This document shows positions 297 through 9,503 of a stretch of 64,000 bases of DNA, piece by piece. The DNA comes from an uncultured Hyphomonadaceae bacterium (GTDB lineage Bacteria; Pseudomonadota; Alphaproteobacteria; Caulobacterales; Maricaulaceae). The DNA lies in assembly GCA_913058335.1 (NCBI GenBank), contig CAJXPX010000006.1:1-64000 (forward strand), in the 5' to 3' direction. The notes under the pieces are model-generated. The model ran no database searches. It saw only the letters and a list, made by a program, of their open reading frames with translations, and was not told the DNA's origin. Every line of letters starts with the position of its first letter. The stretch's first letter is position 1. The position numbers were made by a program, and so were the translations under genes.

Positions 297-1193
297 ATGA
301 CTGATGCTCTTTTCATAAATAAACCAATCGAAATTGCCACTAAATCGATCGAAGATGAATCTATAGATCTTGTCGTAACTTCGCCTCCTTATAATATTGG
401 TAAAGAGTATGAGAAAGAGCGGCGTCTATCCTTAGATGAGTATATAGACTGGCTGGAAGTTATTATTAAAGAGATCGAGCCAAAATTATCAAAATCTGGC
501 AGCATTGTTTGGCAAACTGGCAACCACGTATCAGATACCGAAATTTTTCCCTTGGACATTCTGACTTATCCAATATTTAAAAAACTTGGATTCAAGCTTA
601 GGAACAGAGTTATTTGGCAATTTAATTTTGGTTTGCACGCGCAAAAGCGGCTTTCTGGTCGATACGAAACAGCTTTGTGGTTCACACGCAGCGACGAATA
701 TACATTCAATCTGGATCCCATCCGAGTCCCTCAACTATATCCCGGAAAAAGAAAATCTAATGCTGATGGGGGCAAGTTATCTGGTAATCCGAAAGGGAAA
801 AACCCGAGTGACTTTTGGGAGTTTAGTGCTGAAGAGTTTTTTAGAAATGAACCTATTTGGAAAATACCAAACGTTAAGTCAAATCATGTGGAGAAAACTT
901 CACACCCTTGTCAGTTTCCTTTTGCGTTAGCCGAAAGATTTATACTGGCTTGCTCAAATCCGGGGGACACAATTTTAGATCCATTCCTAGGCTCCGGAAC
1001 AACTGTACTTGCGGCATATGCAAATGGTAGAAATTCAATAGGGGTCGACTTAGACAAGAATTACATAAAAATATCCAAAGCTCGTCTTGAAGAGTTGAAA
1101 AAAGGCACCCTAAGAATTCGACCTGGATACAAGAATGTTATTAAGCCAAATAAAAAACAGAAGGTTGCGAAAGTTCCGGACGAATGGCTATAG
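297..1193 (+). CDS. Site-specific DNA methyltransferase (beta-class, N4-cytosine or N6-adenine)
   Basis: This 298-residue protein should transfer a methyl group from S-adenosylmethionine to an exocyclic base nitrogen in DNA. The catalytic motif TSPPY is at residues 28-32. The SAM-binding motif DPFLGSGTT is near the C-terminus (228-236), preceded by the HPCQFP block usual in this family. The order catalytic motif first, SAM motif last defines the beta class. An S at the first position of the S/DPPY motif is commoner in m4C enzymes, but m6A cannot be excluded. The middle part (about 40-200) would hold the target-recognition region; the site is not predictable. The stop overlaps the start of the DGQHR gene by 10 bases, so the two are probably translated together. 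No separate restriction endonuclease gene lies next to it in view. Confidence 0.9.
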   Translation: MTDALFINKPIEIATKSIEDESIDLVVTSPPYNIGKEYEKERRLSLDEYIDWLEVIIKEIEPKLSKSGSIVWQTGNHVSDTEIFPLDILTYPIFKKLGFKLRNRVIWQFNFGLHAQKRLSGRYETALWFTRSDEYTFNLDPIRVPQLYPGKRKSNADGGKLSGNPKGKNPSDFWEFSAEEFFRNEPIWKIPNVKSNHVEKTSHPCQFPFALAERFILACSNPGDTILDPFLGSGTTVLAAYANGRNSIGVDLDKNYIKISKARLEELKKGTLRIRPGYKNVIKPNKKQKVAKVPDEWL

Positions 1194-2932
1194 CTAAAAA
1201 AAAGAAAAAACGCAGAAAGAAGCTGTCTAAAGCGGAGAAAGCTTTAGCTCGAATAAAAAGTTCACATACCCGTATGTTGCGTGGAAGCTTTCGCGATGCT
1301 GGATTCACTGAAATAACAGACTTAAGAGATTATGAGTTCACATTTGATGGGTTTACATCGGATACTGATGACGTTTTTTTATATGAAAACCTAATCGTAA
1401 TTGTCGAGAGAACAACCGCTGAAAAGCCTTCCGAACACTTTAAGAAGAAGCTGGCGCTTTATTTGAGAATCGAGAAAAAGTACGCACACTTCATTTCATA
1501 TTTACGATCTCTAGAAGAACTAGAAGACACTGATTTTGTAAAAAACTATGATGAAAATGAATGCATTGTAAAAATTGTCTATTGTAGTCGATATGAAATC
1601 GACGAAAAGCAAAAGAAGAAAAGCTCTGAAATAAAGTTTCTTGACTATTCAGTTCTTAGATATTTCTACGCAATTTCTCGAGCCATTAAACAGACTTCGT
1701 TACCAGAGTTTTTTCAGTTTTTAGGAGTTAATTCTATTAATGTAGGGAATGGGGGTCAAATCTCATCCTCTCACCCAAAAAGTGATCACGATTGTTTAAT
1801 ACTGTCGAATTCGAAAGCAAACCTACCAGCGGGTTTTAAAGTAATTAGTTTGTATATTGCTGCTGAGACTATTCTAAACTCTGTTTATGTATTAAGAAAA
1901 CAAGGCTGGTCAGCAGATATAAACGCCTATCAGAGAATGGTAGTCCCTAAAAAAATAAATGAGATTAGAAAATACATCGTACAAGACGGTCATGTTTTTA
2001 TGAACAATGTAATAATCACGTTACCCTCCGACACGAAAGTGCTGGAAAACAGCCCAAAGCAACCAGTGTCTTCTGTGTCAGGCCTGAAAACTGGATCGGT
2101 GTCCATTGGTCACGGCCCGAATACTATTGGGGTTGTAGATGGCCAACACAGAATTCTATCATTTTACGTCGGGGAACCTTCCGAGAAAGAAATGCAAACA
2201 CGACGAAAAAAACAAAACCTACTTGCAACGGCAATCATATTTCCAAAAACATATACTTCAGAACAGAGACAAGAATTTGAAGCTAAACTTTTCTTAGAGA
2301 TTAACACTAATCAGAAGCCACTACCACCGGCTCTGAGCCTATCTATAGAAACATTAGTGCAACCATTTTCAGATCATGCTATCGCTAGTAGGGTAATATC
2401 CGAGCTTGATAAATCAGGTGCACTACAAGGTGTCATTGAAAAATACTTTTTCGAAACTGAAAAACTGAAGCCGGCATCTATAGTGAAATTCCAACTAAGC
2501 CACTTAGTTAGAATACCTAAAGAAAAAAACACCAAAGGAGATAGAACAACAAACCTTTTCGATCACTGGGATGGCAGAGGGAAAAACGGATTGATAGGAA
2601 AAAAGGAATATCAAACTAATGACTATAAAAAGTTAGAGAAATATATTGAATATTGCACAACAGAAATTAACGCAATTCTCCTGGCCTTAAAAAAGAATTC
2701 TCCGAAAGGTACGTGGACTGCTGCTCGGTCTGTAGACGATAGAGTTTTAACGACACTAAATATCAACGCTATTTTGGCCTGTTTGAGAGAGCAGCTCAAA
2801 GAAGGCGAACCTCTTACCCATAAGGAGTATTTAGAGAAATTCAAGGACTTTAACTTTTCTTCTTACCAAAATTACAAATCCAGCCAATACAATAAGATGG
2901 GACAAAAGATTTATGCCGACTTATTTAAATAA
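1184..2932 (+). CDS. DGQHR-domain protein with a possible N-terminal nuclease-like domain
   Basis: This 582-residue protein starts with a Lys/Arg-rich stretch (5-14), followed by a domain of about 170 residues and then a DGQHR domain. The signature DGQHR is at 319-323, preceded by the QR...I pattern (about 250-262) seen in DndB-type, ParB-related proteins. DGQHR proteins are known from phosphorothioation (DndB) and 7-deazaguanine (DpdB) DNA-modification systems, where they act as regulators or nucleases. The N-terminal domain has acidic residues at 62-63, then a hydrophobic strand ending in E75-R-T. This is reminiscent of a PD-(D/E)xK nuclease core but lacks the usual Lys after the Glu, so nuclease activity is speculative. 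The 10-base overlap with the methyltransferase gene implies joint function. It could be a restriction partner or a regulator of the methyltransferase. Confidence 0.75.
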   Translation: MAIAKKKKKRRKKLSKAEKALARIKSSHTRMLRGSFRDAGFTEITDLRDYEFTFDGFTSDTDDVFLYENLIVIVERTTAEKPSEHFKKKLALYLRIEKKYAHFISYLRSLEELEDTDFVKNYDENECIVKIVYCSRYEIDEKQKKKSSEIKFLDYSVLRYFYAISRAIKQTSLPEFFQFLGVNSINVGNGGQISSSHPKSDHDCLILSNSKANLPAGFKVISLYIAAETILNSVYVLRKQGWSADINAYQRMVVPKKINEIRKYIVQDGHVFMNNVIITLPSDTKVLENSPKQPVSSVSGLKTGSVSIGHGPNTIGVVDGQHRILSFYVGEPSEKEMQTRRKKQNLLATAIIFPKTYTSEQRQEFEAKLFLEINTNQKPLPPALSLSIETLVQPFSDHAIASRVISELDKSGALQGVIEKYFFETEKLKPASIVKFQLSHLVRIPKEKNTKGDRTTNLFDHWDGRGKNGLIGKKEYQTNDYKKLEKYIEYCTTEINAILLALKKNSPKGTWTAARSVDDRVLTTLNINAILACLREQLKEGEPLTHKEYLEKFKDFNFSSYQNYKSSQYNKMGQKIYADLFK

Positions 2933-3059: not shown

Positions 3060-3719
3060 CTACTCCCGCTGCAAAACCCCTTCCGTCACCGCGCTCCCGA
3101 CCTTCCCCGCCTTGAACCGCGCTTTCACATCGGCCTGATCATAGACCCCCTCGACCCAGTCCATGAAATCTGTCGGGGTGTGTTCATTATAGGTCAGATA
3201 CTCTTCAAAAAAGAAGTCGAGCATGCCTGTCTTGCCCTGTTTGATATGGCCGTATTTGACATCAAGCTGGTGGACGGCTTCGGCGATGGTGTCGCCCATG
3301 ACGAAGTGGCGGTAGAGGACGGCCATCATCCCCGCACGGTCAGCGCCGGATTTGCAGTGCATGAGGGCGGGGTATTCTATGCGCTTAAACAAATCGCGCG
3401 CGCCTTTGAGGCGGGTGACGCTATGGACGTCGCGGCTATACATTCGAAAATCGATGAAGCGAATGCCGTGTTTTTCGCAGGCTTCGCGTTCCAGCCAGTA
3501 AAAGCCTTTCGGGCTTTCCCCGCGTAGGTTGATGATGGTCTTTATCCCCATTTCGGCAAGTTTACCCACACGTTTGGCATTGGGCTGTACGGCGCGATAC
3601 ATATCGCCGCCAATATGATGGTGGTTATGAAGCCAGAGGCGCAGAAATCCGTGATCGCCCCAAAGGGCCTCGCGATTGGCGCGTTTTCTGTCAGCAGAGT
3701 TGTTGAGATTAAGCGCCAT
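3060..3719 (-). CDS. Dual-specificity/tyrosine phosphatase-like protein
   Basis: This 219-residue cytoplasmic protein (no signal peptide or membrane segment) carries the Cys-x5-Arg phosphatase loop HCKSGADR, with C122 as the expected nucleophile and R128 as the phosphate-binding Arg. A possible general-acid Asp lies upstream in the FIDFRMYSRD region (about 89-97). The family hydrolyses phosphate monoesters by a Cys-phosphate intermediate; substrates range from phosphoproteins to phosphoinositides and phosphatidylglycerophosphate. It is divergent from the lipid A operon, starting 53 bases from its first gene, so a lipid or envelope substrate is possible, but that is inference. It ends close to the right edge of the AT-rich island and has normal core composition. 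Confidence 0.75.
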   Translation of the reverse strand: MALNLNNSADRKRANREALWGDHGFLRLWLHNHHHIGGDMYRAVQPNAKRVGKLAEMGIKTIINLRGESPKGFYWLEREACEKHGIRFIDFRMYSRDVHSVTRLKGARDLFKRIEYPALMHCKSGADRAGMMAVLYRHFVMGDTIAEAVHQLDVKYGHIKQGKTGMLDFFFEEYLTYNEHTPTDFMDWVEGVYDQADVKARFKAGKVGSAVTEGVLQRE

Positions 3720-6752: not shown

Positions 6753-7654
6753 TGCAGGTTTCTTTTGGGCAAAAATTGGCCTGGCGCCTGGAAGCTTTCG
6801 CCTATGATGTGGTCAGCTTTGTTCTCAACCTGTTTCCTTTTTCTTGGATTTCGGCGACCGGCGGATGGATTGTCCGAAAAATCGGGCCGCTGACCTCAAA
6901 ACAAAAAATTGCCAAGACCGGACTTCAAATCGCTTTTCCGGATATGCCCGAAGCAGAGTTAAATAAACTACTCCAGGATCAATGGGACAATATCGGGCGT
7001 ACCTTTGCCGAATTCCCGCTCCTCCACCGTGTAAAAGCTTTTAAGGGATCGCGCGTGACGGTCGAAGGGTTAGATATATTCAAAGCCAATGCCCCGGCCA
7101 TAATCGTAACCGGGCATTTCGCGAATTGGGAAGTTATGGCCACTGTTCTGACGCAGTCGGGTCTACCCGTACGGATAACCTATCGTAAAATAAATAACCC
7201 GCATATTGACCGCCGGGTGCGGGAGAAACGCGAAGCCTACGGTACAAAGTTCCTTGTCCAGAAATCCACCCATAAAGGCGGGCGGGAATTATTTGAAGCA
7301 CTGAATAACGGCGAGAGCATTGCAATCCTGAACGACCAAAAATTCAACACAGGTTTGCCTATTCCCTTTTTCGGGACAGAGGCCATGACCGCCCAGGGGG
7401 CGACACGGCTCGCCCTTAAAACGGGACGCCCTCTCCTCCCTATGGCGATCACCCGCAATGGGTCGGATTTCACCGTCACTTTTTATTCGCCATTAGAGTT
7501 GACGAAGACCGGCGACAAAGACAATGATGTTAAAAATGGCGTGACAAACGTGACACAATTCATCGAAGATCGCATCCGGGAAAAACCCGCTCAGTGGTTT
7601 TGGGTACACAGACGGTGGCCTAAGAAACTTTATTGGCGAGATAAAGATGCGTAA
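6752..7654 (+). CDS. LpxL/HtrB-type lipid A acyltransferase
   Basis: This 300-residue lipid A biosynthesis acyltransferase has an N-terminal membrane helix (about residues 15-32) and the HX4E catalytic motif in GHFANWE (near residue 117). The LNDQKFNTG block and the C-terminal QWFWVHRRW motif are typical of LpxL/LpxM. It transfers a secondary acyl chain from acyl-ACP to Kdo-lipid A (family knowledge); chain length and position are unknown. The start is a GTG at 6752 overlapping the lpxK stop by one base. The end overlaps the GH9 gene by 8 bases, so the two are likely translationally coupled. Confidence 0.92.
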   Translation: MQVSFGQKLAWRLEAFAYDVVSFVLNLFPFSWISATGGWIVRKIGPLTSKQKIAKTGLQIAFPDMPEAELNKLLQDQWDNIGRTFAEFPLLHRVKAFKGSRVTVEGLDIFKANAPAIIVTGHFANWEVMATVLTQSGLPVRITYRKINNPHIDRRVREKREAYGTKFLVQKSTHKGGRELFEALNNGESIAILNDQKFNTGLPIPFFGTEAMTAQGATRLALKTGRPLLPMAITRNGSDFTVTFYSPLELTKTGDKDNDVKNGVTNVTQFIEDRIREKPAQWFWVHRRWPKKLYWRDKDA

Positions 7655-9503
7655 CTATTTAATTCCAGTTGCGGCATTTTTGGCGGCATGCGGCGCTGAC
7701 GCTCAAAGTCAAAATCAGGATCAAGCGCGTGAAAACTCTAAAATTTCGCCTTCAAGTGACGGCGTTGCCTTGTTTTCTGAGGCAAATCCGATTTATGTCA
7801 ATCAACACGGATTTTCGCCTGACAGCAACAAGCTCGCTTTTTTCCGGGGGAAATTAGACAGCCCTGCCTCTTGGTCGCTTCACAGCGAAAGCGGCGAGGT
7901 GGTTTTGGACGGAATAACTGAAACTGTCGGCTACTCCAAAACGGCGCAGCAACATCTCAACAAAATTGATTTCTCAAAGTTTAATAAGTTGGGCGAGGAT
8001 TATTATCTGACCGTCAACGGCGCCCAGAGCCCAAGCTTCGACATAACCAAAGACCTCTATAAATCTCTGAAATACGATGCGCTGGCCTATTTCTATCATG
8101 CCCGAGCAGGCATTCCGATTGAGACGCCTTATGTAAAAGTCGAACATGCCCGTCCTGCCGGACATACAAAAGAAATTGTCACCTGTTTTGAAGGTAAAGA
8201 CATGTGGGGAACGAATTGGCCCGGATGTGATTATGAATTGGATGTGACGGGCGGGTGGTATGATGCGGGCGATCACGGCAAATATGTCGTCAATGCCGGT
8301 ATTACCACTTGGACCCTTCTCAATGCCTATGAGCAATTCGGCGAAAGCTTCGCCGATGGAAAAGTCAATATTCCGGAAGCCGGAAACGGCGTGAACGACT
8401 TGCTGGACGAGGCGCGGTATAACATTGAATGGATGCTTTCCATGCAAGTGCCGGATGGCACAATGATGAAATTGCCTGTCGGAAAGCAGGATGAAGGCGA
8501 ACCGCTTAAACTGACCGAAGTCGATGCCTCCGGCATGGTGCATCACAAAGTCCATGGGGAGAACTGGACGGGCAATATTATGCCGCATGAGGATAAAGAA
8601 ACGCATTATCTCTATCCACCTAGTACGGGCGCGACATTGAACCTCGCGGCAATTGGAGCGCAATGCGCGCGGATTTGGGCAGAGATTGATCCTGCATTTT
8701 CGAAGAGGTGCGCTGCAGCCTCAGAAAAAGCAATGATGGGGGGAGAACTAAACTCTGATATTTATAGCTATAATAATTTTAACGGAGGCGGGCCTTATAG
8801 TGATATGAATTACGCTGATGAGACAATGTGGGCTATTGCCGAAAAATTTGCTACAAATTCAAAGTTAAAACGCATTGACCGCAATTTGACTCTCGCAAAG
8901 GAAGTTACCGGGTATGCCCAACCCAGCTTTAACAACACTTCAACATTAGGAGTGTTGTCGATTAGCCTTTTAGGAAAAAGCCAAACGTCAGAAATTAATT
9001 ATATTATTCGTGAAGCTGACACTTATCTCGCCGACACCGAAATAGAAAAACTTCACTTTCCCTATTATTCAGAAATCTATTATTGGGGTAGTAACTCCGC
9101 TCTGACAAATCGCGCTATTCTCCTCGGCACGGCCTTTCAATTGACAGGCGAGCGGAAATATCGCGACGGCGTCGTCGATTTGATGGATTATCTGCTCGGA
9201 CGAAACCCGACGGGCTATAGCTATATTACAGGCTATGGCGATAATCCTTTCAAGAACCCGCATCACCGTTTCTGGGCCAAATCTGAAATTTCAGACCGCC
9301 CCGACCCGCCCGCAGGCATTCTGTCTGGCGGTCCGAATAATGATAATATGAGCGACCCTGTAGCGGAAACTATTAAGGGGCGCTGCGCCCCGCAAACCTG
9401 TTATGTCGATAACCACGGTGCGTGGACATTGAACGAAGTCACAATTAATTGGAATGCGCCTTTATTCTGGATGGCAGCCTTTTTGGATGCGACGGAGCCA
9501 TAG
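7647..9503 (+). CDS. Glycoside hydrolase family 9 cellulase, lipoprotein
   Basis: This 618-residue protein has a lipoprotein signal (lipobox LAAC, Cys15) and an N-terminal immunoglobulin-like CelD_N domain beginning with YVNQHGFSP. A GH9 (alpha/alpha)6 catalytic domain follows. GGWYDAGDHGKY contains the catalytic base pair D206/D209. Further on come the GRNPTGYSYITG and NPHHR blocks and the C-terminal LNEVTINWN with the likely acid E597. It should hydrolyse beta-1,4-glucans or related polysaccharides at the cell surface or in the periplasm. The start lies 8 bases inside the preceding acyltransferase gene, an unusual place for a cellulase. The stretch 8740-9100 is more AT-rich than its surroundings. 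The type II secretion cluster in the window could export such enzymes, although a lipoprotein may simply stay membrane-anchored. Confidence 0.93.
   Translation: MRNYLIPVAAFLAACGADAQSQNQDQARENSKISPSSDGVALFSEANPIYVNQHGFSPDSNKLAFFRGKLDSPASWSLHSESGEVVLDGITETVGYSKTAQQHLNKIDFSKFNKLGEDYYLTVNGAQSPSFDITKDLYKSLKYDALAYFYHARAGIPIETPYVKVEHARPAGHTKEIVTCFEGKDMWGTNWPGCDYELDVTGGWYDAGDHGKYVVNAGITTWTLLNAYEQFGESFADGKVNIPEAGNGVNDLLDEARYNIEWMLSMQVPDGTMMKLPVGKQDEGEPLKLTEVDASGMVHHKVHGENWTGNIMPHEDKETHYLYPPSTGATLNLAAIGAQCARIWAEIDPAFSKRCAAASEKAMMGGELNSDIYSYNNFNGGGPYSDMNYADETMWAIAEKFATNSKLKRIDRNLTLAKEVTGYAQPSFNNTSTLGVLSISLLGKSQTSEINYIIREADTYLADTEIEKLHFPYYSEIYYWGSNSALTNRAILLGTAFQLTGERKYRDGVVDLMDYLLGRNPTGYSYITGYGDNPFKNPHHRFWAKSEISDRPDPPAGILSGGPNNDNMSDPVAETIKGRCAPQTCYVDNHGAWTLNEVTINWNAPLFWMAAFLDATEP

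Follow-up and report, generated by a model that had tools for sequence, protein, structure and literature searches.

In the accessible sections of the literature on the closest described systems, GmrS carries the motifs QR, DGQQR, and FxxxN (PMC4619093), and the NTPase activity of SspE and DndI is enhanced by the phosphorothioate (PT) mark (PMC11662687). The parts available of two comparative genomics studies of PT and BREX systems cast DndB and DpdB as NTPases, regulators, or possible nucleases. The window analyzed here, 64,000 nucleotides of an uncultured Hyphomonadaceae bacterium (contig CAJXPX010000006.1), begins with a β-class DNA methyltransferase (MTase) gene that overlaps the gene of a DGQHR protein, and the two together resemble a compact and so far undescribed defense system that tells self from non-self DNA. 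We consider this pair to be probably a two-gene restriction-modification (R-M)-like system with a PD-(D/E)XK-like plus DGQHR protein as its restriction subunit. The original prediction of a compact R-M system expected homologues of both genes to adjoin elsewhere, and this was found to be so: an MTase match lies within 100 bp of the DGQHR gene at 82 of 88 loci, a conserved linkage that supports the R-M reading.

Relatives were collected via the DGQHR protein alone, and MTase matches were scored with a hidden Markov model (HMM) built from the MTase of the window. The searches gave 3 matches in 72,556 plasmid records (one to the N-terminal domain only), 1 match in 50,697 phage records, 5 loci on viral contigs, and, at one genome per species, 80 loci kept from 90 relatives. 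The 88 loci comprise the window, L004, L005, L007, L009, L010, L011, L013, and L014–L093, with L012 (protein identical to that of L007), L006 (N-terminal domain only), and the distant L003 excluded. Not all are independent, because the L016 protein is the same as that of L009 and the proteins of L027 and L037 are 90% identical; without L016, the count becomes 81 of 87. At such a frequency, adjacency is not due to chance. The MTase gene lies upstream on the same strand in 76 of the 82, downstream and convergent in 5, and downstream on the same strand in 1, where the 82 include L023, whose MTase is in two frames, and L051, which has a partial MTase only, in frame with an AAA_14 domain. The MTase is within 2.6 kb of the DGQHR gene in L039, L075, L078, and L090, and L073 has MTase fragments within 0.6 kb; L079 is the sole locus with no MTase match in its fetched DNA (13.3 kb). 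Matches to the MTase more than 100 bp away number only 8 in 1,088 kb of locus DNA, 7 of which fall in L023, L039, L073, L075, L078, and L090.

The 80 genome loci span 10 named bacterial and archaeal phyla, with 39 in Pseudomonadota, 28 in Bacteroidota, 4 in Planctomycetota, 2 in Thermodesulfobacteriota, 1 each in Nitrospirota, Fidelibacterota, two candidate phyla, and two archaeal phyla, and 1 unplaced. Occurrence is sporadic: among 289 genomes of the class, the family proper was found in the window's own genome, with a distant match in G143. It is also found on plasmids, in one phage, and on viral contigs and is therefore both mobile and sporadic. As a control, TIGR03187 matches were recovered from 17 of the 289 class genomes, the window's own included, and 16 DGQHR proteins outside the family of the pair were taken from 13 genomes (L124–L137; the below-cut-off G004, G046, and G277 were left out). 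Judged by MTase HMM and motif, a directly adjacent MTase was found for 1 of the 16 (L127, a 798-residue protein with a D12-type MTase), and in two further cases the distance to an MTase is roughly 0.9 and 1.2 kb. Linkage to an MTase is thus a property of the architecture seen in the window and not of DGQHR proteins generally.

No recurrent third gene was seen among the best 25 of 133 matched families in a scan of 140 of the 146 nearest open reading frames (ORFs) of at least 100 residues (85 of 88 loci), the commonest Pfam family being Phage_integrase (4 of 140 flanking ORFs); single cases may be hidden, because these 25 families were the ones considered, as in the PADLOC scan. A single-protein scan of the viral contigs gave nothing. 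As a separate observation, L039 (2423–7728) holds four genes, encoding an MTase, an HATPase_c_3 protein, a 300-residue protein with no Pfam match, and the DGQHR protein. A rule that every nuclease-fused DGQHR protein pairs with an MTase was also considered and rejected, because the 798-residue DGQHR family is without an annotated MTase in the two plasmid relatives inspected (L169 and L170, from 5 long matches). In the members of this family (L127 7852–11054, L169, and L170), the core is preceded by a weak Card1-like endonuclease match and followed by weak HEPN/Abi matches, and a D12 MTase adjoins in L127.

In the structural model, residues 1–198 of the DGQHR protein look like a putative PD-(D/E)XK-like nuclease domain. 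The alignment behind this assignment holds 79 sequences (the 88 loci minus L004, L005, L007, L023, L064, L073, L076, L079, and L092), in which D62, N69, E75, and H85 are kept in all 79 and T77 and K89 in 78. Conservation of D62 and N69 is partly ascertained, because one of two search patterns spanned D62–N69; E75, T77, H85, and K89 lie outside that pattern, and their conservation was not ascertained by it. AlphaFold2 gave a mean predicted local distance difference test (pLDDT) score of 91 and a predicted template modeling score of 0.87 for the whole protein (79 aligned sequences) and a pLDDT of 93 for residues 1–198 (73 sequences), the modeled order of the domain being helix, four strands, helices, strand, short helix, strand, and long helix. 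Judged by sequence order, D62, E75, and K89 fall where a PD-(D/E)XK active site with a displaced lysine would be expected. Foldseek searches of the domain against the PDB returned 442 matches at E ≤ 10, and almost all of the best 50 are PD-(D/E)XK nucleases, including R2, Bax1, Cdn1/Can2, cap-snatching endonucleases, MspJI, and N.BspD6I. The top viral match (9e-4) is annotated PD-(D/E)XK.

The core that follows scores above cut-off with TIGR03187 (75.5 versus 58.85 bits) and PF14072 (32.5 versus 29.1 bits), and its QR, DGQHR, and FxxxN motifs (Table 1) are invariant in all 79 sequences. The top PDB match of the whole-protein model is a ParB-N domain, a weak one (E 3.8e-2), and the C terminus, after the N-terminal domain and core, is helical. 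The DUF262 and DUF1524 HNH families were not listed for the protein by Pfam at E ≤ 1.

The place beside related MTases is shared with BglII-family restriction enzymes. An MTase-based search of plasmids gave 12 records at E ≤ 1e-50, and in the 10 that were inspected the partner is a DGQHR protein in 2, a BglII-family enzyme in 4, and not recognized or not visible in 4. The BglII-family matches score 63.6 bits in Acinetobacter, 112.3 in Sphingobium, and 66.8 in Spirosoma, with that in Paracoccus (25.2) just below the cut-off of 26. On the Acinetobacter, Sphingobium, and Spirosoma plasmids, the enzyme lies directly 3′ of an MTase 52–55% identical to that of the window, and the Spirosoma MTase is 72–73% identical to those of L080 and L011, both of which are then followed by a DGQHR protein. 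A search of 398 phylum genomes gave 3 MTase matches besides the window's own: the MTase of L121 adjoins a DGQHR protein, that of L122 a BglII-like ORF (25.2 bits; the Paracoccus plasmid has almost the same pair), and that of L123 neither. In a 52-row tree, the MTase of the window falls in a clade of 24 that all adjoin DGQHR proteins (support 100/99, starred), and a neighboring clade (83/88, not starred) holds 5 BglII-partnered, 5 DGQHR-partnered, and 1 member of unknown partner; BglII and DGQHR partners switch 3 times on this tree. The proposal that BglII-family enzymes always accompany the MTase clade of the window was discarded, because 7 of 9 BglII loci have a DPPW-type MTase instead; of the other two, L146 (the same place as L122) has an MTase of the window's clade, and the short L143 is without a visible MTase. 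Apart from these, MTases of the window's group also adjoin other recurring genes, encoding proteins of 633–636 residues and of 276–278 residues (NOV_C in L123), at L122 (1470–7070), L163 (2024–5765), and L123 (1211–6352), which are perhaps another multigene defense system.

BglII cuts AGATCT and BstYI cuts RGATCY, and the target of the window's MTase may resemble the sites of this family. RGATCY is rarer in the window than expected (32 versus 59.4 ± 8.0), with AGATCT at 8 versus 12.5 ± 3.3 and YGATCR at 67 versus 83.2 ± 9.2. Its avoidance was dropped as a hint of specificity, because RGATCY is no less avoided in congeners in which no close DGQHR or MTase homologue was found (28 of 304 NGATCN sites in five congener stretches totaling 75.5 kb versus 32 of 212 in the window), and the rarity seems to be a lineage trait. 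This genomic-site test lent no support to a shared target of nuclease and MTase.

As for the MTase itself, it matches PF01555 (N6_N4_Mtase) at E 6.4e-57, and its PDB relatives by sequence include the RsrI and MboIIA methylases. Motif IV, TSPPYN (residues 28–33), precedes motif I, DPFLGSGTT (residues 228–236), which is the β-class order, and an SPPY motif points to N4-cytosine methylation. Under the R-M reading, the host genome would carry the mark of the MTase at the target site, and unmarked DNA would be cut or nicked by the N-terminal domain of the DGQHR protein, the restriction subunit. The ParB-type core may bind or hydrolyze NTP and gate the nuclease, by analogy with what has been proposed or shown for the DUF262 core of SspE, DndI, and GmrSD. 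Self-recognition is the least certain step of this scheme.

On that step, the distribution of MTase types gives a hint. With one MTase counted per locus and L079 contributing none, the 87 MTases comprise a group of 42 with SPPYFDM and kin (about 420 residues), a group of 38 with SPPYN and kin (about 310 residues, that of the window), and minor groups of 4 DPPF (that of L073 a fragment) and 3 DPPY. In a DGQHR tree built quickly from 81 rows (the 88 loci minus L016, L037, L064, L073, L076, L079, and L092), the MTase group switches at least 13 times, versus 30.9 for shuffled labels, and this clustering indicates that the two genes are largely inherited together yet have exchanged partners repeatedly. 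DGQHR proteins 57–63% identical pair with different MTase groups, as at 63% in L082/L084, L063/L067, and L039/L065; L090 (≤68% identical to group-B rows) is not counted among these examples, its MTase being 775 bp away on the opposite strand. A partner-dependent recognition block in the DGQHR protein was sought and not found: between 202 swapped and 436 same-type pairs, identity differences were 0.00 to −0.05 in all 30-residue bins, the mean identities differing by 0.02 anyway, a test with little power should different MTase groups have a target in common. Because closely related nucleases join unrelated MTases, the data slightly favor a nuclease that reads the methyl mark, or an MTase–DNA complex, rather than one with its own target-recognition domain. 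The fuller proposal, a methylation-gated, NTP-dependent nuclease with no target-recognition domain, whose DGQHR core senses the mark of the neighboring MTase, is put forward tentatively, as possible more than probable. If true, one nuclease family could serve unrelated methylases, doing for base methylation what SspE and DndI do for the PT mark.

The absence of a local identity drop among the swapped pairs, which is what a nuclease lacking its own target-recognition domain might show, would also suit a guard or suicide effector, in which the methyl mark or the MTase quiets the nuclease until a phage blocks or destroys the MTase, freeing the nuclease and killing the cell. The shift in NTPase activity that the accessible sections of PMC11662687 report for the ParB-type NTPase-nucleases SspE and DndI on meeting the PT mark points the same way. 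BglII-family enzymes in the same slot beside related MTases fit site-by-site restriction instead, and we regard a guard as unlikely. Less likely still is that the DGQHR protein regulates the MTase gene as DndB would, making the pair an orphan modification system: the cores are related, and DndB is an ATP-dependent negative regulator (PMC10853773, accessible sections), but PD-(D/E)XK-like acidic and lysine positions kept in 78–79 of 79 sequences across phyla are unexpected for a mere regulator. The original prediction gave the DGQHR protein two possible roles, of which cutting is favored over regulation by the PD-(D/E)XK-like model and the BglII slot. A modification-dependent, Type IV-like nuclease against differently modified phage DNA, with a protective or incidental MTase, is the most improbable alternative, for although GmrS shares the three core motifs (DGQQR for DGQHR) and GmrSD cuts modified DNA (PMC4619093, accessible sections), an MTase within 100 bp at 82 of 88 loci, with none only in L079, is not what a GmrSD-like enzyme would call for.

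Several observations weigh against the R-M-like reading preferred here. The motif reads E-x-T in place of the canonical E-x-K, with the lysine on the helix that follows; the best PDB match of the N-terminal domain in Foldseek has an E of 1.6e-3, with none at E ≤ 0.001; and sequence profile searches gave the domain no convincing Pfam or PDB match. Because sequence profiles find no relative, the PD-(D/E)XK assignment rests on model and motif. L075 and L078 hold a BamHI-family enzyme (100.1 and 104.1 bits) between the MTase and DGQHR genes, and the Spirosoma plasmid holds an MTase, a BglII-family enzyme, and an N-terminal-domain ORF together; in such arrangements the DGQHR protein may be supernumerary. 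The Spirosoma ORF (L006 8389–10487, NZ_CP056033.1), a lone N-terminal domain of 197 residues, runs across the end of the record and is possibly an assembly cut. L023 has an intact DGQHR gene beside an MTase in two frames. The DGQHR tree gives the window's row one of its two longest branches (1.62 versus a median of 0.36), and the MTase of the window has a 4-residue gap before motif IV, in the place of a G-D stretch found in relatives, the exact G-D being missing in 12 of 37 readable members of its MTase group, the window among them; because of this branch and gap, the copy in the window may be weakened or drifting. Both of its reading frames are open. Elsewhere, a broken DGQHR gene lies beside the MTase in L064, L076, and L092 (where the frame stops 114 bp before the end of the contig), both genes are broken in L073, and the DGQHR gene of the MTase-free L079 is without the last 109 of 562 model positions. 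The pattern, in a small number of cases, would suit a nuclease dependent on its MTase.

Table 1. Positions of the gene pair and its parts within the window
Feature	Coordinates	Strand	Description
β-class DNA MTase gene	297..1193	+	298 residues; N6-adenine or N4-cytosine type; TSPPYN motif
PD-(D/E)XK-like plus DGQHR protein gene	1184..2932	+	582 residues; proposed restriction subunit
N-terminal PD-(D/E)XK-like domain (putative)	1184..1777	+	Residues 1–198; conserved residues and model
DGQHR/DndB-like ParB/Srx-type core	1853..2791	+	QR 250–251; DGQHR 319–323; FxxxN 370–374
MTase/DGQHR gene overlap	1184..1193	+	10 bases shared

The ORFs confirm the predicted overlap of the two genes (Table 1). The upstream side of the MTase is not visible, because the window starts at base 1 of its contig (C6). 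The next gene 3′ of the pair (3060–3719) is phosphatase-like in a Pfam search, in keeping with the claim that no ordinary restriction enzyme lies beside the MTase. Dnd genes had been said to be absent, and the genome search, which was for dndC and did not cover dndD or dndE, gave no match. No protein of the genome other than this DGQHR protein matches PF14072. The pair looks like an accessory insertion in this genome: GC content is 37.5% over 1–2950 versus 50.8% over the remaining window, a pattern as for an insertion, and neither gene was matched in the syntenic stretches of five fetched congeners, in which the phosphatase gene and the next three genes (labeled acyltransferase-like, waaA, and lpxK by eye) are conserved in order. 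No close DGQHR homologue was found among 11 sampled congeners, the distant match being G662 (E 2.1e-7, a 768-residue frame), and no close MTase (E ≤ 1e-30) was found among 19 sampled relatives. No convincing repeats flank the pair. Beside the lpxK region, the window also encodes a 618-residue protein (7647–9503) that is GH9-type endoglucanase-like by eye.

Annotation of the DGQHR protein on the two plasmids reads only "DGQHR domain-containing protein." In L005 (9884–11710), the "lmrP" efflux gene predicted in PLSDB is the DGQHR gene and looks like a false resistance call. NCBIfam (June 2026) and PADLOC-DB hold no model for the pair beyond DGQHR and weak or below-cut-off DpdB and Dnd-associated matches, and no description of the pair was found in the accessible open-access literature (a search that did not extend to subscription papers, preprint servers, or REBASE). 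For proteins annotated merely as DGQHR domain-containing, the R-M-like reading would supply a mechanism, and on it Pseudomonadota, Bacteroidota, archaea, and other phyla are predicted to carry a new restriction-enzyme architecture. This reading would link methyl-based R-M with the ParB-type NTPase-nucleases of PT-sensing and Type IV defense, and it makes the reading of base methylation by ParB-type cores directly testable.

Set against known systems, the pair has the Type II hallmark of an MTase linked to a nuclease gene at 82 of 88 loci, with the partner a nuclease by inference. Like BglII/BstYI Type II R-M systems, it has a related MTase (52–55% identity) with the putative nuclease gene directly after it, but that nuclease is about three times longer, has no PF09195 match, and carries a ParB/Srx-type DGQHR core. 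With DndB and DpdB it shares the DGQHR core (PF14072; the DpdB model NF041060 reaches 39.8 bits against a cut-off of 300, and dpd genes were not searched for), whereas those matches begin no earlier than residue 219 and take in the core but not the N-terminal domain, and the partners of DndB and DpdB are PT or deazaguanine enzymes instead of an MTase. GmrSD-type enzymes are not known to have a cognate MTase partner. In its accessible description, Type IV GmrSD is alike in the QR, DGQ(H/Q)R, and FxxxN motifs and unlike in its HNH nuclease, which cuts glucosylated hydroxymethylcytosine DNA. The PT-sensing SspABCD–SspE and DndI systems (DUF262 plus HNH), again as far as the accessible sections describe them, likewise combine a ParB-type NTPase-like core, a nuclease domain, and a DNA-modification module; theirs is a C-terminal HNH domain with DGQQR and phosphorothioation, whereas the pair has an N-terminal PD-(D/E)XK-like domain with DGQHR, a single modification gene, and base methylation.

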